Positions 4,377-42,982 of a stretch of 64,000 nucleotides of DNA are shown here, one piece after another. The position numbers and the translations under genes were made by a program. The stretch comes from Nitrospiraceae bacterium (GTDB lineage Bacteria; Nitrospirota; Nitrospiria; Nitrospirales; Nitrospiraceae): positions 125,998-189,997 of the forward strand of contig CAKKRK010000001.1 of NCBI GenBank assembly GCA_919902665.1. Direction: 5' to 3'. The first letter of the stretch is position 1. The number at the start of each line of letters is the position of its first letter. Under the pieces are notes generated by a model that was not told the DNA's origin, ran no database searches, and saw nothing but the letters and a program-made list of their open reading frames with translations.

Positions 4377-5822
4377 CTATTTACCGCCCGGTGCTGCCAC
4401 CTTTGGCGCGAACATCTCAAACACACTGGGCTCCCGCTCCAGGTAGTCCGGCGGGAAGAAGTTAAATCGCCGCCACAGTTCATACCACAGAGGGACGCGA
4501 TTCATGACCACCCAGCCCAACACTTTTGTACCCTGCCTCACCTGAGCCTGATCAGGCCATGGTTGAGATTCTTCTGGATCAGGAACGACCCAGAATCGGT
4601 AGTTCCCTTTTCCATCGTCAATCTGGTCAACCACCTTGATCACGCCCCCGCGAGTGCCCGCCATCAACCCAGGCCAAGCCGGTAATGGGATGGCCGGGAC
4701 TCCAAAAAAGAGGATCCGAACCTTTCGCCCAGGCTTCAAAAGTGGGGAATCCAATCCTTCGGCCACCATTTCAATGGCTGGATCAGAGGCGACTGGAGAA
4801 ATTGTAACCAGGTTTTCTCCCTGCTTGACCGTCTCATTAAGACCAACTTTGGCCATCTTGACGACCGTGCCATCCATCGGCGCATACAGCTTTGCGGCCT
4901 CAATACGTTGCTGAACTCCCTGTTGTTTGTAGGAGATCTCAGCTAAGGATTCGGTTGCTTTGGCAGCTTCCGCGACGGCAGAATCACGTGATGCAATGGC
5001 GTCCATCAGTTTCTGATGCACATCAGCTGACACTTGATCACGACCGAAGCTCAAGGCCGACCGAGACTGCTCGGCAGCCGACAAAGCGGCCTGCGCTGCC
5101 TGCAAACCGGCCTTGGTGCCGATCTCGGTCTGAATCGTGAGCTCAAGTTCGCGCTGGGAAACCAGTCCATCACGGACAAGCTGCCGATGACGGTCGACAT
5201 TGAGTTGTGCCGTGTGCACATCGATCTTGTACTGCTCAACCTTCTGTTGAGCCTCACGCACTTTATTATCGGCCTCGACCACGCGGGCCTCCGCTGAGGG
5301 CACAGCAGCCTGCACCAACTTTTTCATCTCCCCGATTCTTTTCGTCAGCTGATCAGCCCTGGACATAGCTGCCTGGCGAGTTTGCTCCAGCGCTACCTTG
5401 CGCTGTTCGAAGAGGGGGAGGATCTCGGGCGCCATAAAGGTTGGATCGTAATCTTCCAACTCGCCGACAAGTTCGCCCTTCTTGACTTTGACTCCTTCGT
5501 AAATATGCCAGGCTTTGACACGGCCTGTAATCCGAGACTCAATCTGCTGCGGCCGGTCATATGGCGTGTAGGCGGAAACTTTTCCAGACGCCTGGATCGT
5601 TTGTGTCCAGGGTACGAATTCGAGGATGATCAGAAAGAGCAATAGAATTGTCAGAATGGCACGAGAAGCCGTGAACATTCCGCTAGGAATCTGTACTGCC
5701 TCCCAGCACGGCATCTTGGCCAATGCCGACCCCTGATCGATGGAGATCGCCTCTAAGCCGACCCCTCGCCGGACCAGCGCACGTTCTCCACTGTTTTCCA
5801 GACCGCGACCTAGGCTAGCCAT
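4377..5822 (-). CDS. HlyD/MFP-family periplasmic adaptor
   Basis: Single N-terminal TM, lipoyl-like ITGRVKAWHIYEGVKVKKGELVGEL, long coiled coil, LYAPMDGTVVKMAKVGLNETVKQGENLVTI. Confidence 0.85.
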   Translation of the reverse strand: MASLGRGLENSGERALVRRGVGLEAISIDQGSALAKMPCWEAVQIPSGMFTASRAILTILLLFLIILEFVPWTQTIQASGKVSAYTPYDRPQQIESRITGRVKAWHIYEGVKVKKGELVGELEDYDPTFMAPEILPLFEQRKVALEQTRQAAMSRADQLTKRIGEMKKLVQAAVPSAEARVVEADNKVREAQQKVEQYKIDVHTAQLNVDRHRQLVRDGLVSQRELELTIQTEIGTKAGLQAAQAALSAAEQSRSALSFGRDQVSADVHQKLMDAIASRDSAVAEAAKATESLAEISYKQQGVQQRIEAAKLYAPMDGTVVKMAKVGLNETVKQGENLVTISPVASDPAIEMVAEGLDSPLLKPGRKVRILFFGVPAIPLPAWPGLMAGTRGGVIKVVDQIDDGKGNYRFWVVPDPEESQPWPDQAQVRQGTKVLGWVVMNRVPLWYELWRRFNFFPPDYLEREPSVFEMFAPKVAAPGGK

Positions 5823-5867: not shown

Positions 5868-7550
5868 TTACGCATGAGCATGATGCAGCATGATGCGACG
5901 ATCCGCATGATCCGTAAGATTGGGATCCGTCGAGACGAAAATCACGGACCAGGCTTCATCTTTCGAGCACAGCCGACGCAAGATACGCTCACGCAACGAC
6001 GGCTCAAACGAGTGAATGAGGCCATCAAATATCAGAACTTGCGGACGTCCTAAAATGGCTCTGGCCAAGAGGATCTGCACAATGTGCGTTGGCGAAAGTG
6101 ATTCTCCAAGCGTAGAGATATCGGACTTGACTCCGCGTGGCAACCCTTCGACATCTTCTTCAAGTTCGGTGAAGCGGAGCGCCCAGTTGAGGTCGTCATA
6201 CGTGACATAGGAACGTCCCATCACGATATTTTCTTCAACCGTTCCCTTCACCAACGACAATTGGGAGTCGATCATGACACTGCGGCATTGGTTGATGGCA
6301 TTACCGTCAATATACCGGAGGTCGACCCCATTGTACTGAACGACGCCATTCGTTGGAACTTCCAGGCCACCCAATACTCTGGCCAAAGCTGTTTTGGCCC
6401 CCGTGGTCCGAGCGTAGATACCGAGCTTCTCACCTGGTGCGACATCCAGGTTGAAGCCATCGAATACCGACACCCCACTATGAACCAAACTGACCCCTTT
6501 GCAGGTAACCCGAACTCCTTGAGCCAAGTGCTTGGGCAACGCCACCGTTGATTCTGTTGTGACCTGATCTTGCTCCTGACTAAAGACCTCATCAAGGTGG
6601 GTCAGGGAGGCGAAGAAATAGTACACAGACCCCATGTTCTTGATCAGGGAGTCGAAATTGATGACGAGTGCACTCACGACCGCTTGAACAGCGACTAACT
6701 GCCCTAGAGTCAACTGCCCTGACGCCATGAGTGAGGCTGCGATGCCAAGCGCTCCGGCTTGTGCGATGGCTTGTCCGCCCACAGATCCAATATATTGCCG
6801 CACGAGAACCGCAAACCTTGCCTTCCGAGCTTCAACATACCGACCGACCAGATCGTTCGTTTTGTTCATGAGAAACGGGCGGCTGTCAGTGGCCTTCAGC
6901 TGCAGTGCATTCTTTGAAACCTCTTGAACAAAATTGAAGACGTCGTATTTCGCGTGAGACATGGCGAGGGTACTTTTGAGGGCACCACGGGACAACACGA
7001 AGAACGTGATGCCAAACCCAGCCAAAAGCATAAGGTTGTACATGAGGAAATAGGGATGGTAGACGACCAACACAACCATGCCGACCGTACCACCCACCAC
7101 GACATTGATCAGGTCGATCAACAGCGTGGACAGAGCACGTTGCATGAAGACCGTTTCCATAAAGTAGTTCGTAATTTCAGGCCGTGAACCTTTAAAACGA
7201 TTCCGAGGAAGCTGGTCCACCATCGCAACCGTGACTCGTGCAAAGATGCGGCGTTGCACGACATCCACCGCGTAGAAGTGGAATGTCTTGAACAGGCCGA
7301 CAAACAACAGCACCGACAGCATAATGCCGGTCAACGTCCAGATCATGACCGGCTGAACCGCATAGGAAAAGGTGCTGACCAATTCCTGCACGGTCAACGG
7401 GATGATAAGAGAAAAGAACCCGACGGCCAGCGCATAAGAAAAAATCAAACTCATGATTTTTTTCTCAGCCTTCATGGCCACGGACAGCTGCTTCATCAGC
7501 GCTTCGAACAGCCCCTTGGAACCTTCGCCCTGAGGTTCTTTCATGACCAC
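5868..7550 (-). CDS. ABC transporter-like fused TM/nucleotide-binding-domain protein with degenerate ATPase motifs
   Basis: N-terminal TM domain and ABC-fold C-terminus; Walker A read as ARTTGAKT, signature LSPTH, Walker B VLIFDG. Confidence 0.8.
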   Translation of the reverse strand: MVMKEPQGEGSKGLFEALMKQLSVAMKAEKKIMSLIFSYALAVGFFSLIIPLTVQELVSTFSYAVQPVMIWTLTGIMLSVLLFVGLFKTFHFYAVDVVQRRIFARVTVAMVDQLPRNRFKGSRPEITNYFMETVFMQRALSTLLIDLINVVVGGTVGMVVLVVYHPYFLMYNLMLLAGFGITFFVLSRGALKSTLAMSHAKYDVFNFVQEVSKNALQLKATDSRPFLMNKTNDLVGRYVEARKARFAVLVRQYIGSVGGQAIAQAGALGIAASLMASGQLTLGQLVAVQAVVSALVINFDSLIKNMGSVYYFFASLTHLDEVFSQEQDQVTTESTVALPKHLAQGVRVTCKGVSLVHSGVSVFDGFNLDVAPGEKLGIYARTTGAKTALARVLGGLEVPTNGVVQYNGVDLRYIDGNAINQCRSVMIDSQLSLVKGTVEENIVMGRSYVTYDDLNWALRFTELEEDVEGLPRGVKSDISTLGESLSPTHIVQILLARAILGRPQVLIFDGLIHSFEPSLRERILRRLCSKDEAWSVIFVSTDPNLTDHADRRIMLHHAHA

Positions 7551-7674: not shown

Positions 7675-9267
7675 CTAGTCACGTCCAAGCAGTTTACGGC
7701 CTGAGGACCCTGCTGCCTGTAGCGGATCACCATATTTGGCAAGTACCTTCTCACCCACTGGTTTCGCCAGTGCCCCTCTTGCATACAACATCCCCCCACG
7801 GGACACTACATAGTCGGCCTGGGCGCGGTAGAGCTCATAGGATGTCTCAACTACGTTGCGCTCACGCAGATTGACAAAGAGAATGCTGGTCGCTCCCATA
7901 TTAAAGCGAGCCCGTTCCCCCTCTTCCAACGTCTTGGCCAAGCGAAGAGCCTCTGTTGCAGCCTTCACCCGATCCCTGGCCCGCACTTGGGCAGACAGCC
8001 AGTTATCGACATCGACCGCAACCTGCTTTTCAGTATAGGCCTGCTTATACGCCAATCGTTGCTGCTGCGCTTCTGCGTGAAGAACCTTCCCTCGGGCGCC
8101 CCGATTGAACAACGGCATACTGAAGAGAGTCCCCACTCGGTAGCCGAACCCTCCAATCCAATAGATGCCACCCACCGCCGGTCCCCCCTCAATCTGTAGC
8201 TTGGGAAGCAGACCATTCTTCGCTAGTTTCAGTTCGATATTGTTCAGTCTGGCTTCAATGTAGAGATCGCGCACTTCCGGGCGATCCTCAGTGGCTTCTG
8301 CCTTAAAAGCCGCCACATCCTCTTCGCTTGGCAACGGCATTTCCCCATGAAATTCCGGAGCCCACTCCGGTCTCGGTGTCACCGGCTCGCCATCCTCCCA
8401 GAGAAAGAGCGCCAGCTTATATTGCTCATACTCGACCTTCCGTTGCGCATAAATGGCCGCTTCTCGACGCCGCTGAACTTCTTCCCGGGCTTCGACCACA
8501 TCAATCGGTGCAATGGCGCCGGCTTTGGATCTGCCCTCCACCATGCGATAGCGCTCCTCCGCGACGGCGAGCGCGCGCCTCACGACATCGGCCTGCTTGA
8601 CGGTGACCTGCCAGTCCCAGTATTGCACGGCTCCGGCGAGATAGAGATCTTGCCGCTTCTGCGCCACCTTCACCTCCGCTTGTGGCCCAGCAAGCTCTGC
8701 CTGTTGAAACTCGGCATTCGCTTCGTTGACCATGAATCCACGAAGCAGGTTAAACGATCCGCCAACGATGGCCGTTTGCTGCGTATAGAACAGTGTCAAG
8801 TCGGTAGGGAAGGCTACGGGGCCAGTGTCCGCAGAGTGAAGGAACGCGCCAGCATTTCCAGTCATCGTCGTGTGATCCCCAAAGCCGTGACGGATCCCAC
8901 CGAAGACCTCAAATCCCCAGGGGTGCCCGATCTTGAGCATCGTATCGCTATAGCCACCAGTCAGGGTATTTATTCCGCTAACGTTCGTCAGATTAAACGT
9001 CTGATAGCGATCGACCTCGACCTCGTTCCGAAACTTGGGCTCCCAGGCACCCAACGCTTTCAGGATTTTCGCCCGAGCCTGCGAGCGTTCCAGTCCCGTA
9101 GCGCGGAGCAGCGGATGGGTCAGTTCGATTCGCGCCAGCACCTCCTCAATAGTCAGTGGAGCGGTGCGAGTCGACTGAGATTTTAATACACTGGAATCAT
9201 GAATCGGTTCCGCCACTGCGGTCGCCGACACCACCATCATCAACGAGAACAACAATAGAAGGATCAA
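7675..9267 (-). CDS. TolC-family outer membrane efflux protein (copy 1); likely TTG start at 9267 within ORF 7675..9330
   Basis: Signal peptide, paralogous to the next two ORFs; AAAGGAG upstream of a TTG aligned with the starts of the paralogs. Confidence 0.8.
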   Translation of the reverse strand: MILLLLFSLMMVVSATAVAEPIHDSSVLKSQSTRTAPLTIEEVLARIELTHPLLRATGLERSQARAKILKALGAWEPKFRNEVEVDRYQTFNLTNVSGINTLTGGYSDTMLKIGHPWGFEVFGGIRHGFGDHTTMTGNAGAFLHSADTGPVAFPTDLTLFYTQQTAIVGGSFNLLRGFMVNEANAEFQQAELAGPQAEVKVAQKRQDLYLAGAVQYWDWQVTVKQADVVRRALAVAEERYRMVEGRSKAGAIAPIDVVEAREEVQRRREAAIYAQRKVEYEQYKLALFLWEDGEPVTPRPEWAPEFHGEMPLPSEEDVAAFKAEATEDRPEVRDLYIEARLNNIELKLAKNGLLPKLQIEGGPAVGGIYWIGGFGYRVGTLFSMPLFNRGARGKVLHAEAQQQRLAYKQAYTEKQVAVDVDNWLSAQVRARDRVKAATEALRLAKTLEEGERARFNMGATSILFVNLRERNVVETSYELYRAQADYVVSRGGMLYARGALAKPVGEKVLAKYGDPLQAAGSSGRKLLGRD

Positions 9268-9292
9268 GGAAGGATGCTCCTTTGTTGCTGAA

Positions 9293-10870
9293 TTAATCAC
9301 GTCCAGGTTGCTTCGTGGAGCCGTTCGCACCAGCCGCCGTCAGCGGGTTCCCATACTTGGCCAGCTCGCTTTCAGGCCACGGCTTCGCCAGGGCGCCTTT
9401 CGCCCACAACATCCCTCCACGCGCCACCGCGTAGTCTGCCTGCGCCCGATACAGTTCGTACGCTGACTCCACGACGTTACGTTCCCGGAGGTTCACGAAC
9501 AGCACAGTGGTCGCCCCCATATTGAACCGGGTCCGCTCGCCTTCTTCCAGCGTCTTCGCCAACCGTAGCGCTTCCGTCGCTGCCTTTACCCGATCTCTGG
9601 CCCGCACTTGGGCCGAGAGCCAGTTGTCCACATCAATGCTGACTTGTTGCTCGGCGTATAGCTGTTTGAAGGCCAATTGTTGCTGGTCCGCTTCCGCATA
9701 CAGGACCTTCCCACGCGCTCCCTTCTGGAACAGCGCCATCTCAAACTGCATGCCGTACCGATACCCCGCGCCCACAATCCAGTCTGCGGGGGCTTCCGTT
9801 CGTCCCCCATTAAAATTCAATTTCGGGAGCAGTTTGTTCTTGGCCAGCTTGATATCGATATTGTTCATCTTGGCTTCGATGTAGTAGTTCCGCACTTCCG
9901 GCCGATCTTCTTTCGCCTCCACTTTATAGGACGCGATGTCTTGTTCAGTGGGCAAGGGCGTTTCGCCCTGGAACTCCGGCGCCCACTCCGGTCGTGGGGT
10001 TACCGGCTCGCCGTTTTCCCAGAGAAAGAGAGACAGTTTGTATTGCTCATACTCCACATTCCGCTGGGCGGCGATGGCTGCCTCACGCCTGGCCTGAACC
10101 TCTTGATTCACCTCGATCACATCGAGCGGCGCAACCTTGCCGCCCTTGGCCATCCCTTGTACCTGTGCAAGCCGCTCTTCGGCCACGGTCAAGGCACGCT
10201 TCACCATCTCGGCCTGTCTGACGGTGACCTGCCAATCCCAGTACTGGACGGCGCCGGCGAGATAGAGATCCTGCCGCTTTTGCGCGACCGCGATCTCCGC
10301 CTGCGGCCCCGCGAGTTCAGCCTTTTGAAAATCGGCGTACTCGTCGTTGACCATGAAGCCGCGCAACAGAGGGAAATCTCCGCCGAAGATCATTTGCTGC
10401 TGATTATAGAAAAGTTTTGCATCAGGGATGACAGCCACGGTCCCTGCTGCCAGACCACTGATAGCAGGCTCCCCGACAATGGGAGGATCGCCGAATCCGT
10501 TACGGATCCCGCCCATGACCCGGAAGCCCCAGGGATGTCCGACCTCAAGCTTGCTGTCGTTGAATCCCCCCGTGGCCACCTCGGGGTTATACAGAAAATT
10601 CCAAATTTGAATACGAGCGACCTGTGTAATGTTCTTGAACGTCGGTTCCCAAGCCGCCAGCGCTTTCAAGACCTTCGCCCTGGCCTCAATCCGATCGACG
10701 CCCTGAGCCTTGAGCAGAGGATGGGTCAGTTCAATACGGGCAAGCACTTCACTGATCGTCAGGGGTTCGGTGCGGGCGGACTGCGCCTTCAACGCAGTTG
10801 AATCATGCACCGGCCCCGCCATGGTCGTCACGGGAAGTACGAGCAGAATCACGAATAATAGAGCGACCAT
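9293..10870 (-). CDS. TolC-family outer membrane efflux protein (copy 2); ORF extends to 11005 but ATG at 10870 has an AAGGAG upstream
   Basis: Shared blocks ISEVLARIELTHPLL, AQKRQDLYLAGAVQYWDWQVTV, NWLSAQVRARDRVKAATEALRLAKTLEEGER. Confidence 0.82.
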   Translation of the reverse strand: MVALLFVILLVLPVTTMAGPVHDSTALKAQSARTEPLTISEVLARIELTHPLLKAQGVDRIEARAKVLKALAAWEPTFKNITQVARIQIWNFLYNPEVATGGFNDSKLEVGHPWGFRVMGGIRNGFGDPPIVGEPAISGLAAGTVAVIPDAKLFYNQQQMIFGGDFPLLRGFMVNDEYADFQKAELAGPQAEIAVAQKRQDLYLAGAVQYWDWQVTVRQAEMVKRALTVAEERLAQVQGMAKGGKVAPLDVIEVNQEVQARREAAIAAQRNVEYEQYKLSLFLWENGEPVTPRPEWAPEFQGETPLPTEQDIASYKVEAKEDRPEVRNYYIEAKMNNIDIKLAKNKLLPKLNFNGGRTEAPADWIVGAGYRYGMQFEMALFQKGARGKVLYAEADQQQLAFKQLYAEQQVSIDVDNWLSAQVRARDRVKAATEALRLAKTLEEGERTRFNMGATTVLFVNLRERNVVESAYELYRAQADYAVARGGMLWAKGALAKPWPESELAKYGNPLTAAGANGSTKQPGRD

Positions 10871-10893
10871 CGAAGCATGCTCCTTGTGCCGGA

Positions 10894-12507
10894 TTAATCG
10901 CGGCCCGGTCGTTGAAATCCGTACCCACCGGCTGCTGTCAGGGGATCTCCATACTGCGCCACGGATTCCTTCGACCAGGGCTTCGACAAGAGACCCCTGG
11001 CCCACAGCATCCCTCCACGCGCGACGGCGTAGTCAGCCTGCGCCCGATACAGCTGGTACGCTGATTCCACCACGTTGCGCTCCCGGAGGTTGACGAACAG
11101 CACGGTGGTCGACCCCATATTGAACCGAGTCCGCTCGCCTTCTTCCAACGTCTTGGCCAACCGCAACGCTTCCGTCGCCGCCGTCACTCGGTCTCGTGAC
11201 CGCACGATCGCCGACAGCCAATTATCCACGTCGAGGCTCACTTGCTGCTCGGTATATTGCTGCTTCAACGCCAATTGTTGCTGGGCCACTTCCGCGGCGA
11301 GAATCTTCCCACGCGCTTCCCGCTGGAACAACGGCATCTCGAGGTGCACTCCGGTGCGGTATCCGATTCCCACAATCCAGTCCACGGCGCCGTCGGTCGG
11401 CCCCCCCTCAATAAGCAACGACGGGAGCAGTTTGTTCTTGGCCAGCTTGATGTCGATATTGTTCATCTTGGCTTCGACGTAGAGATCCCGCACTTCCGGC
11501 CGATCTTCTTTCGCTTCCACTTTATAGGCGGCGATGTCTTGTTCAGTCGGCAAGGGCGTCTCGCCCTGGAACTCCGGTGCCCATTCCGGTCGCGGAGTCA
11601 CCGGCTCGTTCTTTTCCCAGAGAAAGAGGGACAGTTTGTATTGCTCATACTCCACCTTCCGCTGCGCGGCGATCGCCGCCGCTCGCCGCTTCTGCACCTC
11701 TTGATTCGCCTCGACGACATCGAGCGGCGAGACCTTCCCACCCTTGGCGAGCCCTTCGACCTGGACTAGGCGCTCTTCGGCCACCGCCAAGGCGCGCTTC
11801 ACCACCTCGGCCTGCTTGACGACGACCTGCCAATCCCAGTATTGCACGGCCCCGGCGAGATAGAGATCCTGCCGTTTCTGCGCCACCTTGATCTCCGCCT
11901 GCGGCACCGAGAGTTGAGCCTGTTGATACTCGGCATACTCTTCGTTGATCATGAGGCCGCGCAACAGCTGAAACGACCCGCCGAGAATGAATTGCTGCTG
12001 TTTATAGAAGCCCTGCATATCAGGGATAAGGGCAATGATATTGTTGCTTTTATCCCCGAAGCCGCTGCGCATCCCGGCCTGGAACCGAAACCCCCAGGGA
12101 TGCCCGACATCAAGCTTGGTGTCGTTGAATCCCCCCGTCAATACCTGCGGCTGTATGCCATCACATTTAACGTTGATGTCTTGCTCTGCCGTGCAGGGAG
12201 CAATGGCCAAGCCTGGGGTGGGAGCCGTGGTGAGATTCCACGTGTCAAATCGTTGGGCTTCTACATTGTTCTTGAACTGCGGTTCCCAGGCCCCAAGCGC
12301 CTGGAGGATTTTCCCCCGGGCCTTCATTCGCTCGGCTCCGGTCGCCTGCAGCAAAGGATGCGTCAACTCGATGCGAGCCAGTACTTCACTGATGCTCAGT
12401 GGAGCAGTACGCGTCGACTGCGCTTTCAATGCGCTGGAATCATGCGTCGGTTCCGCCAGTGCGGCCATCGGCAGGAGAGTCATAAGGGCCAATACCAGAG
12501 CGATCAT
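10894..12507 (-). CDS. TolC-family outer membrane efflux protein (copy 3); ORF extends to 12531
   Basis: Same shared blocks; signal peptide MIALVLALMTLLPMAALA; GGAG upstream of ATG at 12507. Confidence 0.82.
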   Translation of the reverse strand: MIALVLALMTLLPMAALAEPTHDSSALKAQSTRTAPLSISEVLARIELTHPLLQATGAERMKARGKILQALGAWEPQFKNNVEAQRFDTWNLTTAPTPGLAIAPCTAEQDINVKCDGIQPQVLTGGFNDTKLDVGHPWGFRFQAGMRSGFGDKSNNIIALIPDMQGFYKQQQFILGGSFQLLRGLMINEEYAEYQQAQLSVPQAEIKVAQKRQDLYLAGAVQYWDWQVVVKQAEVVKRALAVAEERLVQVEGLAKGGKVSPLDVVEANQEVQKRRAAAIAAQRKVEYEQYKLSLFLWEKNEPVTPRPEWAPEFQGETPLPTEQDIAAYKVEAKEDRPEVRDLYVEAKMNNIDIKLAKNKLLPSLLIEGGPTDGAVDWIVGIGYRTGVHLEMPLFQREARGKILAAEVAQQQLALKQQYTEQQVSLDVDNWLSAIVRSRDRVTAATEALRLAKTLEEGERTRFNMGSTTVLFVNLRERNVVESAYQLYRAQADYAVARGGMLWARGLLSKPWSKESVAQYGDPLTAAGGYGFQRPGRD

Positions 12508-12650
12508 GAAGGATGCTCCTCTCGTATACATTCGGCGGACGGCGCCAACACTAACAACCTCCCCTTCTTTTTTAAAAATAGATAAAGCGGATTGGAGATA
12601 TCGGTAATTTCTATGTATAGTAGTGCCTCCAATGTACCAAAGAGGGCCGC

Positions 12651-13550
12651 ATGGATTGGTTGAATTACCATCATCTCTTGTATTTCTGGTCTGTCGCGAA
12701 GCACGGCACCATGACGAAAGCGTGCGAAGAACTCCGCTTGGCTCAACCCACGATCAGCGGACAGATCGGACAGTTGGAAAATACCTTGGGCGAAAAGTTG
12801 TTCATCCGAACAGGGAGACGGCTGGCGTTGACGGAGATGGGACATCTGGTGTTCAAGTACGCCGAAGACATCTTTTCGACCGGGCAGGAGCTGATGAACA
12901 CGGTCAAAGGGCAGGTGAATGGACATCCTGCCCGACTGGTCGTCGGCATCGCAGACGCCGTTCCAAAACCGCTGGCGACCCAACTCCTCAAGTCGGCTCT
13001 GAAACTGTACCGACCGACCCGTTTGATCTGCCAAGAAGACAAACTGCTCCAACTCTTGACCGATCTGACGGCCCATCGATTGGATCTCGTGATTGCCGAC
13101 ACACCACCCCCATCCAACATCAAGGAGCACGCCTACAGCCATCCCTTGGGCGAATCAGGAATCACGCTGTTTGCAACGGCGAAGCTGACGGCACAATATC
13201 GTCGGGAATTTCCGAAGTCATTAAACAGCGCTCCCTTGCTCCTCCCAACGCCCAATGCCGTGCTTCGACGACTGCTCGACCAATGGCTGGTCAACCATGG
13301 GCTGCGGCCCAACATTGTGGGAGAGTTCGACGACAGCGCAACCTTGAAGGCGTTCGGCCAGGACGGATATGGCATCTTCCCCGGTGCCTCGGTGATCGAG
13401 AAGGAGATCTGCCGCCAATACCGAGTGCAGGTGCTCGGACGGCTTGAGGCGCTCAAGCAACATTTCTATGCGATCACGGTGGAACGACGGCTGAAGCACC
13501 CGGCCGTTCTTGCTCTCGTTCGAACCGCCCGGCAGGAGTTGCTGAGTTAG
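12651..13550 (+). CDS. LysR-family transcriptional regulator, NhaR-like
   Basis: N-terminal MDWLNYHHLLYFWSVAKHGTMTKACEELRLAQPTISGQIGQLE helix-turn-helix. Confidence 0.85.
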   Translation: MDWLNYHHLLYFWSVAKHGTMTKACEELRLAQPTISGQIGQLENTLGEKLFIRTGRRLALTEMGHLVFKYAEDIFSTGQELMNTVKGQVNGHPARLVVGIADAVPKPLATQLLKSALKLYRPTRLICQEDKLLQLLTDLTAHRLDLVIADTPPPSNIKEHAYSHPLGESGITLFATAKLTAQYRREFPKSLNSAPLLLPTPNAVLRRLLDQWLVNHGLRPNIVGEFDDSATLKAFGQDGYGIFPGASVIEKEICRQYRVQVLGRLEALKQHFYAITVERRLKHPAVLALVRTARQELLS

Positions 13551-37321: not shown

Positions 37322-40300
37322 ATGCAGCCTGCGCCTTTGCCAGAGAACGAAGCCTCCCGTCTCGCCGCACTCCGACAATACGAGATTCTCGACACGCCGC
37401 CGGAAGCGGCCTTCAACGAGTTGACCGAACTCGCCGCTCAGATCTGCGGGACACCGATTGCGCTGGTCAGCCTCATCGATCCTCATCGCCAGTGGTTCAA
37501 GGCGAAGGTTGGTATCGAGGCTCAGGAAACCTCCCGCGACATCGCGTTCTGTGCCCACACGATCCATGGCAGTGACCTGTTCGTGGTAGCCGATGCCACC
37601 CACGACGCACGATTCTCCGATAACCCCCTGGTGACGGCAGACCCGCACATTCGCTTTTATGCCGGGATGCCACTTGTGACACCGGCCGGCCATGCGCTGG
37701 GCACCCTCTGTGTGATTGATCGAATACCCAAATGGTTGACTGACGATCAAATGAACGCGCTCCGTATTTTGGGACGGCAAGTCGTCACTCAACTTGAGTT
37801 GCGGAGGGGCCAGCAGGAACTCGAACGGAGTCTGGCCAGGCAAAAACAGCATGACCAGTCACAGGCAGACCTCCTTCGAACGCTCGAACACGGGTTGGAG
37901 GGCCTGGCCTTCTTGGACCAGGAAGGCCGCTATACCTATATGAACCCGGCACATGCCGCCATCTACGGGTACCAGCCAGAGGAGTTGATCAACCGCTCGT
38001 GGAAGACCTTGTACACTCCCGAGGGGGTGGCCAAGATTGAACAACTATATTTCCCAATCCTCTTGCATATCGGTCGGTGGTCCGGCGAGGTGCAAGGCCT
38101 CACCAAATCGGGCCAGGAGATCGACACTGAAATCTCCCTCGTCCTTTCACAGGAGGGGAAGGATCCGGCTCGCTGGCTCATGTGCACCTGCCGGGATGTG
38201 ACGGCACGTACCGTCGCACAGCGCCAGCTGGAAACCCATCGGAAAAGCCTGGCTCAGGCTCAGGCCATCGCCCATGTCGGCAGTTGGGAATGGGACGAAG
38301 CCACAGAAACGGAAATCTGGTCGGACGAACTCTTTCGAATCTGCGGCTATGCGCCTCAAGCGATCACGCCCACCGGTGACACCTTCCGCACGGCGATCCA
38401 TCCCGACGACCGATCCAGCGTGTTCAAGGCCGTTGAAGACGCGCTCGAACAGAATCGCCCCTATGAGGTGACCTGCCGGATTGTTCGCCCCAGCAAGGAA
38501 ATTCGCGACGTGCTGTGCCGTGGCACAATCATCCGTGAGACCAAAGGCCTGCCGAAGTCCATGACGGGCACCGTTCAGGACATTACTGAACAAACGGTGT
38601 ATGAACAGACGTTGCGAGATTCACTTCAGCGGTTGGACCTGGCAACGGCATCGGGCAGCATCGGGGTCTGGGACTATCACATTTCCAAAAACAAGCTGGT
38701 CTGGGACACACGGATGTACGCGCTCTATGGCTACACAACCGAGGATTTTCCCGGGGCGTATGACGCCTGGACCAATGAGAATTTTCCCGGGACGTATGGC
38801 GCCTGGACCAACCGACTCCATCCTGACGATAGACCCGCTGCCGAAGATGCCTTCCAAGCCGCGATCAAGGGAGAAGGTCGATTCGACACAGAATTTCGCT
38901 TGCTCCTTCCAGACCAAAGCATTCGCCATATCAAGGCATGCGCCGTTGTGATCAAGGATGACCAAGGTCACGTAGTCCGAATGACCGGCATCAATTACGA
39001 CATCACGGTGCGCAAAGAATCGGAACGGGCCTTGCTTGATCTTCACAACTTCCAAGAAGCCATCCTCCTCAACGCCCCCCATGCCGTGATCGCAACCTCG
39101 ACGACGGGGATCATCCAACATTTCAATCCGGCAGCCGAAAAGCTCTTGGGCTATTCCGCCGAAGAGATGATCGGCAAGTTGACCCCGGCAGTCTTCCATA
39201 ACTCTGAAGAAGTAGCCGCGCGCGCGAAAATATTCGGTACCGAACTGGGGATCGAGCTGGAGCCGGGGTTCGACGTCTTCGTCGCCAAGGCTCGCCTGAA
39301 CTTGCCCAATCAACACGAGTGGATCTACATCCGCAAAGACGGCACGCGGATCCCCGTGCTGCTCACTGTCACCGCGATCCATGACCATACCGGCACGATC
39401 ACCGGCTTTCTGGGAATGGCAACCGACATATCAGTACAGAAGAAGGCTGAACGGTCCAGATTGATGGCAGAAGCGGCGTTTCGAGAAAAAGAAGAGCTCA
39501 CCCGCGTGATGATCGAGAATGTGCTCGACTACTCCATTCTCCGACTCGACTCCGAGGGACATGTTGTGTCATGGAACCAGGGGTCACAGCGTCTGAAGGG
39601 ATACACTGCAGACGAGATCATCGGTCGTCACTTCTCCTGCTTTTACCCGGAGGAAGACCAAGCAAGTAGCAAACCCATGGCGCTATTGAGAAAAGCCACA
39701 ACCCATCACCATGCGGAAGACGAGGGATGGCGCGTGTGCAAGGACGGCTCACGGTTCTGGGCCCACGTGGTCATCACAGCCCTATTCGACCAGGATGGAC
39801 AACTGAAGGGCTTCACCAAGGTCGTCCACGACATGACTGCGCGCAAGCAGGCAGACCAGGAACTAAAAGAGCGGGAAGCGTCGCTCGTGCGGTTTAAGAC
39901 ATCCCTCGATCAGACGCTCGACTGCGTGTTTATGTTCCGCCCCGATACGCTACGCTTCACCTACTGCAACCGCGGAGCCTGCGAGCAAGTCGGCTACACC
40001 TCAGCTGAGCTCCTCACCATGACGCCCCTCGACATTAAACCCCAGTTCACCTTGGAACAGTTCCAGGCGATAGTGCAGCCGCTCATCGACGGCACGCAGC
40101 CGTCCTTATCCTTCGAAACGCTTCACCGGCACAAGGACGGCCATGACATCCTGGTTGAGATCTCGCTGCAACTCGTTCAACTGGAGAAGCAAGACTCGCT
40201 CTTCGTAGCCATCGTTCGCGATATCACCGCCCGCAAGCAGGCTGAGGCACAGTTCCGCCAGGTCGTTGAATCCGCCCCGAACGGCATGCTCCTGGCCAAT

Positions 40301-42982
40301 CAGGACGGCATCATGACCCTGGTCAATGCCCAGGTCGAGCGGTACTTCGGCTACGACCGCCAGGAGCTCCTAGGCCAACCGGTCGAAGTGCTGATGCCTG
40401 AGCGGTTTCGAGCGCGACACTCCGGGCAGCGCATCGACTTCTTCCACCGGCCCAAAACCCATTATGCGATGGGCGTCAGCCGCGAGCTCTTTGGTCTCCG
40501 CAAAGACGGCACCGAGTTCTCACTGGAGATCAGCCTCAACCCTATACACACACCCACTGGCCTCCAAATCCTCGCCTCTATCGTCGATATCACCACCCGC
40601 AAGCAGGCTGCAGAACAGTTCCGCCAGGTCGTTGAATCCGCCCCCAACGGCATGCTCCTGGCCAATCAGGACGGCGTCATGACCCTGGTCAATGCCCAAA
40701 TCGAACGCTACTTCGGCTACGACCGCCAGGAGCTCATCGGTCAACCAATCGAGACACTGATTCCCGAGCGATTCCGTCCTCAGCATCCTGGACAGCGAAC
40801 CGGTTTCTTTCACAAACCCACAGCCCGAGCCATGGGCGTTAACCGCGAACTCTTCGGCCGCCGCAAGGATGGCACGGAGTTCCCGCTCGAAATCGGACTC
40901 AACCCCATCAAAACCCCCGAGGGCCTCCAGGTCCTTGCCTCCATCGTCGATATTACGGCGCGCAAACAGGCGGAAGAACAGTTCCGCCAGGTCGTTGAAT
41001 CTGCCCCTAACGGCATGCTCGTGGCCAACCAGGACGGCGTCATGACCATGGTCAATGCCCAAATCGAACGCTACTTCGGCTACGACCGCCAGGAGCTCAT
41101 CGGTCAACCAATCGAGACACTGATTCCCGAGCGATTCCGTCCTCAGCATCCTGGACAGCGAACCGGTTTCTTTCACAAACCCACAGCCCGAGCCATGGGC
41201 GTTAACCGCGAACTCTTCGGCCGCCGCAAGGATGGCACGGAGTTCCCGCTCGAAATCGGACTCAACCCCATCAAAACCCCCGAGGGCCTCCAGGTCCTTG
41301 CCTCCATCGTCGATATTACGGCGCGCAAACAGGCGGAAGAGAGGCTGAAACAAGCGGCTCGTGACTTGGAAGCCCGTAATCAGGAGTTGGCGGAAGCGAA
41401 CCAGGTCGCGCTGTCCGCCACCCGCGCCAAGAGCGAATTCCTCGCGACCATGAGCCATGAGATTCGCACTCCCATGAATGCGATCGTCGGCATGGCGGAA
41501 CTACTCCAAGAAACGCCGCTCACGCCAGATCAGGCCAATTATGTCGGCCGCTTCAGCCGCGCCGCGGGCTCCCTCATGGAGCTGATCAACGCCATTTTGG
41601 ATCTCTCCAAGATCGAAGCTGGCTTCATGGCGTTGGAATCGGTGCCCTTCGATCTGGCCCAACTCGCCGACACCACGGCAGAGCTCATGTCCGGGAAGGC
41701 GGTGGCCAAGAAACTTGAACTCTTGGTCCTCGTGCATCCGGATGTCCCACAGGGTGTCGTCGGGGACCCCACCCGCTTGAATCAGGTGCTCGTCAACCTC
41801 GTCAGCAATGCGATTAAGTTTACCGAATCCGGGCATGTCATGCTCACCGTCGAACCGGCCCCCGATCGATCGATTGCCCACGCCCTCCGTTTCTCGGTGT
41901 CCGATACCGGCATCGGCATCCCGCCGGACAAGCTCCGGTCCATCTTTGAGCCCTTCACGCAAGTCGATTCCAGCACGACGCGAAAGTACGGCGGCACGGG
42001 ACTCGGCTTAAGCATCTCCCACCATCTCGTGCAACTCATGGGGGGCCATCTGGAGGCAGACAGTACGGTGGGAGTCGGCACCACCTTCTCCTTTACCATT
42101 GCCCTGCCGGAAGCCCCGCTCGTGATCACTCGCCCATCGGGACAGCCCCTCGATTTACGCGCGCTACGCCTGCTCCTCGTGGACGACAACGACACCAATC
42201 TGATCATCCTCCGGACCCATCTCGCACGCAGCGGCATCCAGCTCCTGGAAGCGAGCAGTGGCGCGCAGGCCTTGGCAATCTTGGATGACGCCCATCAACG
42301 CAAGGAGCCGATCACCCTCGCCATTTTGGACTATCACATGCCGGGCATGGATGGGTTGGACCTCGCCCAGGCGATCCGCAACCGACCGGAATGGGCGACG
42401 CTGCCCCTGATCATGCATGTCTCGGACCTTCAGCGGGACGAAACTCGACGAGCCCAATCGTTGGGAATTACCAACTACCTCTATAAGCCACTCAGCCGAC
42501 GGCGCTTAATGGATTCGTTGGCCGTGGCCCTGAACGTGGCACCAGTCGGACCGGTGGAACAGGAGAAGGTAGCGCCGGCTACACCGCAACCCTGTCACAT
42601 TCTGTTGGTGGAAGACCTGGAAGATAATCGCGATGTGGTCGCACTCTTTCTCAAGGACACCCCGTATCAGCTAGACATGGCCGAAAATGGGGCCGTCGCC
42701 CTGCAGAAATTCCAGACCGGTCGCTATGATTTAGTGCTCATGGATATGCAGATGCCAGTCATGGACGGTCTCGAGGCCACAGCGGCCATTCGCGCATGGG
42801 AACGAGTGCAGCAGCGCAGGCCCACGCCGATCGTGGCACTGACGGCCAATGCCTTCAAAGAAGAAGCAGACAAGTGCCTCGCCGCAGGTTGCACGGCCCA
42901 CCTTACGAAACCGATCAAGAAAAAAACCCTGCTGACTGCCATCGTCCAATGGACCGATTCTCCCAAAGACCAAGCAGCCTAA
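37322..42982 (+). CDS. 1886-aa hybrid sensor histidine kinase: GAF, many PAS domains, HisKA/HATPase, two receiver domains
   Basis: GAF N-terminus; repeated PAS/PAC blocks; [22 protein letters not shown]; two receivers with intact Asp ([20 protein letters not shown]). Confidence 0.93.
40251..41342 (+). repeat. Three tandem PAS-domain repeats (about 366, 363 and 363 bp); units 2 and 3 identical over 292 bp
   Basis: 40686-40977 is identical base for base to 41049-41340. Confidence 0.9.

Follow-up and report, generated by a model that had tools for sequence, protein, structure and literature searches.

A conserved ABC exporter protein with a degenerate ATPase site, encoded with HlyD and TolC in Nitrospirota

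ABC exporters are defined by their ATPase. The locus described here shares with type I secretion systems (HlyB/HlyD/TolC, PrtD, LssB/LapB) an HlyB-like fold, an operon with HlyD and TolC, and a TolC-docking motif. It differs from them in that the nucleotide-binding domain (NBD) of its ABC protein is without the catalytic Glu, the His, the Gln and the signature, in that the NBD is absent in one lineage, and in that the NCBIfam T1SS models score far below cut-off on the protein. Conserved loss of catalytic residues within a type I exporter fold is also a feature of heterodimeric exporters of the TmrAB, TM287/288, TAP and CFTR type. However, known heterodimers retain one intact composite site, to which one side contributes the Walker B Glu and the opposite side the LSGGQ signature, and for the protein studied here no partner carrying an intact site turned up. 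Its best NCBIfam score is to the PCAT and NHLP bacteriocin exporters (NHLM_micro_ABC1, 116 bits versus a cut-off of 853); these have a peptidase, whereas our protein is without an N-terminal C39 peptidase domain and its motifs appear dead. Secondary SecA_DEAD + HlyD/OEP modules resemble our locus in combining T1SS-like adaptor and outer-membrane components while lacking an ABC ATPase, but they use a SecA-like ATPase and have no ABC homologue (PMC4452313), while our operon keeps an ABC-derived permease and no ATPase. The absence of an ABC homologue led us to reject that module as the same system. A full-text search of open-licence PMC returned no paper describing the family to which our protein belongs.

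The window analyzed is a 64,000-nucleotide stretch of a Nitrospiraceae genome, and the features of interest are listed in Table 1. The pseudo-ABC gene (5868–7550, minus strand) has a GTG start and, as the initial annotation had it, a frame of 560 aa with no internal stops. Pfam ABC_tran (34.1 bits, cut-off 25) and Foldseek both place the product in the type I ABC exporter fold, with a transmembrane domain (TMD) and a RecA-like NBD. Foldseek matched the predicted structure to HlyB, TmrAB and Sav1866 at E of about 1e-19 to 1e-21, with HlyB nearest (8dck_A, E 1.2e-21); the monomer model is of moderate quality (mean pLDDT 67.6, most of the NBD 73–89), and its alignment included one canonical Nostoc row. 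The TMD had been called normal, which is not quite the case, as it scores 17.7 bits against ABC_membrane, under the 28-bit cut-off. No peptidase domain was detected by Pfam, and the protein begins about 20 residues ahead of the TMD. Elsewhere in the window, positions 37322–42982 (+) hold an ORF of 1886 aa.

Motif positions were read by alignment to solved exporters. Codons 6390–6413 give exactly the Walker A sequence first reported. The other substitutions in that report were confirmed as well: LGESLSPTH for the signature, with LSPTH aligned to LSGGQ; Gly at the catalytic Glu position of Walker B; Ser for the Q-loop Gln in MIDSQ, where a Gln sits one residue later; and Thr for the H-loop His in FVSTDPN. 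The A-loop aromatic is also gone (VSLVH). The broader claim that every canonical ATPase motif is degenerate holds insofar as all motifs are altered, but Lys386 and Thr387 of Walker A and Asp509 of Walker B persist, and these are the only canonical residues left. A functional ATP site (Walker A, Q-loop, signature, Walker B Glu and H-loop His) was not found in this protein. The remaining ABC exporters encoded in this genome have canonical motifs.

Table 1. Coordinates of features in the window and in loci encoding NBD-less relatives
Feature	Location	Position	Strand	Basis or remark
HlyD-family adaptor, 481 aa	Window	4377..5822	(-)	TolC-docking RxxxLxxxxxx[ST] motif (RHRQLVRDGLVS)
Pseudo-ABC exporter, 560 aa, TMD then degenerate NBD	Window	5868..7550	(-)	ORF, profile and structure matches
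Degenerate NBD, about residues 345-556	Window	5883..6518	(-)	Pfam, model
H-loop site	Window	5928..5930	(-)	Thr541 for His (FVSTDPN)
Walker B	Window	6021..6038	(-)	VLIFDG; Gly510 in place of catalytic Glu
Signature site	Window	6084..6098	(-)	LSPTH vs LSGGQ (stretch TLGESLSPTH)
Q-loop site	Window	6261..6269	(-)	DSQ (within MIDSQ); Ser at Gln position, Gln one residue later
Walker A site	Window	6390..6413	(-)	ARTTGAKT vs GxxGxGK[ST]; 3 motif Gly replaced, Lys386 and Thr387 kept
TMD, about residues 20-330	Window	6561..7493	(-)	Portion retained in NBD-less relatives
TolC-family outer-membrane protein, copy 1	Window	7675..9330	(-)	Pfam OEP
TolC-family outer-membrane protein, copy 2	Window	9293..11005	(-)	Pfam OEP
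TolC-family outer-membrane protein, copy 3	Window	10894..12531	(-)	Pfam OEP
Divergent LysR-type regulator	Window	12651..13550	(+)	Single copy, no other close copy in genome
NBD-less version	L140	5704-6744		HlyD-TolC operon, then DabB-X-DabA
NBD-less version	L141	4444-5457		HlyD-TolC operon, then DabB-X-DabA
NBD-less version	L142	5352-6365		HlyD-TolC operon, then DabB-X-DabA

Homologues of pseudo-ABC were detected at E<=1e-40 in 66 of 99 relatives, and a GTDB scan yielded 44 loci, nearly all of them in Nitrospira. In the 93 aligned Nitrospirota rows, where some species are counted twice via two collections, the catalytic Glu position is always Gly, the Walker B Asp is always retained, and the H-loop position is Thr, Asn or Ile; His occurs there in no row of the family. 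Catalytic Glu and H-loop His are both present in 12/12 canonical control exporters. Most Nitrospira members still have the Walker A Lys/Thr and the Walker B Asp. When window orthologues were compared in pairs, dN/dS came to 0.080 for the TMD, 0.049 for the NBD and 0.039 for the degenerate motifs, so the NBD is under selection, though not for canonical chemistry. Because exporters of the same genome are canonical, the substituted residues are conserved in relatives and the NBD is under purifying selection, the motif loss is more than chance. Decay of a pseudogene or an assembly error would be barely credible as an explanation, and we rejected both: the gene is intact and shows the same kind of degeneration in dozens of independent genomes, with dN/dS far below 1. 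Orthologues with canonical motifs, which the initial annotation had named as grounds for abandoning its view that this is not simple decay, were looked for and none was found; the orthologues are degenerate alike and purifying selection acts on them. Together the alignments and dN/dS values show a conserved, selected ABC exporter protein that is without the residues for ATP hydrolysis.

In the window, an inner-membrane ABC protein, an HlyD adaptor and a TolC factor are encoded together, as in type I secretion. Most homologous loci are ABC/HlyD/TolC operons, with exceptions that include orphan paralogues, and in most intact operons HlyD and TolC adjoin the pseudo-ABC gene. Three tandem TolC genes with overlapping ends (7675–12531, minus strand) stand ahead of one ABC and one HlyD gene, and this TolC triple is retained in most window orthologues. 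The direct neighbors of the trio are purE/purK-like genes and LysR, with no RTX or other substrate gene recognized among them. A promoter and terminator scan gave hits at chance level only. Presence and absence follow the same pattern: among the 99 relatives, HlyD is present in 66/66 genomes with pseudo-ABC and absent from 32/33 genomes without it. In the sole exception (G046), the conserved locus holds a 5'-truncated HlyD remnant that has neither ABC nor TolC for a neighbor; the trio has been deleted there between pseudouridine synthase-like and purK-like genes (L189, 7316–8605). The RxxxLxxxxxx[ST] pattern, a TolC-docking motif demonstrated for HlyD (PMC3391258), occurs in 124/125 HlyD homologues; since it also arises in 19% of shuffles, its position and conservation carry weight rather than its bare presence. 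This operon structure and co-occurrence support the earlier proposal that the protein is a structural or gated part of an envelope complex.

Another contrast with canonical exporters comes from a Nitrospirales family (f3). In three of its species (G078, G080 and G094) the operon consists of HlyD, TolC and TMD genes, and the third gene stops at 337–346 aa, directly past the TMD, with the next gene following. The three species form a single clade in the TMD tree (support 100/100), so that the NBD has been lost naturally in one lineage of the family. A displaced pseudo-NBD was sought elsewhere in these three genomes and none was found; the matches that remain are at most 35% identical and come from other ABC proteins, the top one being shared with species whose gene is intact. 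In sister f3 species the NBD is still present, though without its Walker A Lys. Across f3, conservation is higher in the TMD than in the NBD (0.69 versus 0.48, TMD ahead in 28/28 pairs), as it is in Persicobacter (0.93 versus 0.58) and in sphingomonads (0.64 versus 0.53). In the window genome's canonical exporters it is the NBD that is better conserved (TMD 0.24, NBD 0.51), although these are paralogues, so that the pattern is comparable and the rate is not. In the window orthologues the NBD is the more conserved domain (TMD 0.79, NBD 0.87), suggesting that it has a job of its own there.

These observations bear on the suggestion, also made in the initial annotation, that the protein is the inactive half of a heteromeric exporter in which a canonical ABC subunit encoded elsewhere hydrolyzes ATP. 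Degenerate sites are common in heterodimeric exporters (PMC7756269), and additional ABC_membrane proteins of the window genome have their motifs in canonical form. However, a composite site needs LSGGQ from one chain and pseudo-ABC offers no signature; the conserved operon contains no intact NBD gene, and a search of it and its surroundings for a subunit with complementary intact motifs found none. NBD-less members exist, and other genera of the window's family carry a tandem gene pair in which both copies are degenerate. L002, the canonical exporter of this genome that most resembles a T1SS one, was considered as an obligate partner and rejected, since many complete genomes with the trio, G025, G030, G037 and G043 among them, and the f3 genomes lack it; this excludes one candidate and not every possible one. 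Canonical ABC genes near L093/L094 were likewise set aside, as they look, judged by sequence, like an unrelated ABC-2/Gld-type cluster. The pairing proposal therefore fared poorly, and we regard it as unlikely. As a separate observation, the first of the two tandem genes in one genome (L147, 5983–8478; G225) is broken between its TMD and NBD frames.

Another reading is that the NBD binds ATP or another nucleotide without hydrolyzing it, and acts as a slow sensor or as glue that sets the gate. Retention of the Walker A Lys and Walker B Asp in window orthologues would fit, as would the strong conservation of the degenerate motifs (dN/dS 0.039). On the other hand, Walker A and the signature have other residues in place of their glycines, and the A-loop has no aromatic. 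The loss of the Lys in f3 and of the whole NBD in three species indicates that nucleotide binding is not a general requirement. We consider this account improbable for the family, while weak nucleotide binding by Nitrospira members is possible, given that Lys/Thr and Asp persist in most of them. Members that have no NBD might still make use of an ATPase supplied in trans.

Degenerate relatives outside Nitrospirota were found on plasmid records of Bacteroidota (Persicobacter, Aureibacter, Riemerella) and Sphingomonadales (Novosphingobium, Sphingobium). Sampling beyond Nitrospirota is of plasmid records only, and is thin. HlyD and TolC usually come after these genes; two sphingomonad copies (L111, L112) are adjoined by IS3 transposases and have no HlyD/TolC alongside. 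Only the Riemerella relative combines a sound P-loop with a Glu in the catalytic place; its Walker B Asp, however, is replaced by Lys, and it lacks a signature. In a tree built from TMD columns, 48/48 degenerate rows fall on one side of a 100/100 branch and the 12 canonical exporters on the other. As aligned, motif loss is common to the sampled relatives in three phyla. The separating branch is long and the non-Nitrospirota sampling thin, so an intact member may yet be nested in the family.

Some members have been found outside the trio. Orphan paralogues form separate clades, one beside a PAS histidine kinase and an NtrC-type (sigma-54) response regulator (L096, L148, L151, L159; Pfam-tested in L159), another adjoining a Na+/H+ exchanger (Pfam-tested in L102 and L154) and glycosyltransferases (L102, L154, L157). 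Some ATPase-dead members have thus been put to use away from the trio. These contexts also lend something to the idea that pseudo-ABC takes no part in transport itself and instead serves in sensing or assembly, as the orphans stand beside the kinase and regulator or the exchanger without HlyD/TolC. For the window gene this is very unlikely, because it is tied to HlyD and TolC both in the operon and in presence and absence, and the TolC-docking motif is retained in HlyD.

Gene neighborhoods connect the trio to DAB, a PMF-driven CO2 hydration complex (PMC13144422). A homologue of the window LysR gene, 51–89% identical, lies next to the trio in Nitrospira and two f3 genera (g11 and g13), and next to the DAB operon DabB-X-DabA-PII in G074. 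DAB and the trio are linked in four f3 genomes and in Sphingobium. The three NBD-less species have a merged operon with LysR and the order HlyD-TolC-TMD-DabB-X-DabA, with PII visible in G094, and G082 has LysR with DabB-X-DabA-PII-HlyD-TolC-pseudo-ABC. In Sphingobium KCTC 72723 the order is DabB-DabA-pseudo-ABC-HlyD-TolC (L172 with L187/L188, on a plasmid, at the origin of NZ_CP060389.1); the DabB gene spans the origin of that record and is missing from its gene table. The linkage thus takes three different gene orders with one shared regulator type, and covers 4/11 f3 trio loci. In the window genome, DAB lies on another contig than the trio. As guilt by association and as a lead only, this suggests a working tie of the trio to the PMF-driven DAB inorganic-carbon system in sister lineages.

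Our preferred reading, held with reasonable though not strong confidence, is that the window protein belongs to an ancient family of ABC exporter proteins whose ATPase is dead and would serve as the inner-membrane base of an HlyD-TolC conduit, independent of ATP hydrolysis. The TMD dimer would be the working part, as a gate or as a membrane platform for the HlyD ring, and the Nitrospira NBD may be kept as a folded dimerization or regulatory domain. In place of ATP hydrolysis, the conduit would be driven by a gradient, by a ligand or by a proton-driven partner coupled to it, and the LysR regulator probably controls the trio. We put forward only tentatively, as rather doubtful, the fuller picture of a conduit with a permanently ATPase-less ABC permease, driven by PMF or a gradient and working with DAB in autotrophic Nitrospirota, in which a degenerate NBD has naturally given way to no NBD.

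If the preferred reading is true, a lineage across three phyla shows that an exporter TMD can work without its motor, and the trio with a deleted NBD is a natural experiment on how type-I-like conduits are energized and gated. Database names such as "ABC transporter ATP-binding protein" would then be misleading for the annotated relatives in this sample. Given the linkage to DAB and LysR, a role for the trio in how nitrite oxidizers metabolize carbon can be tested.
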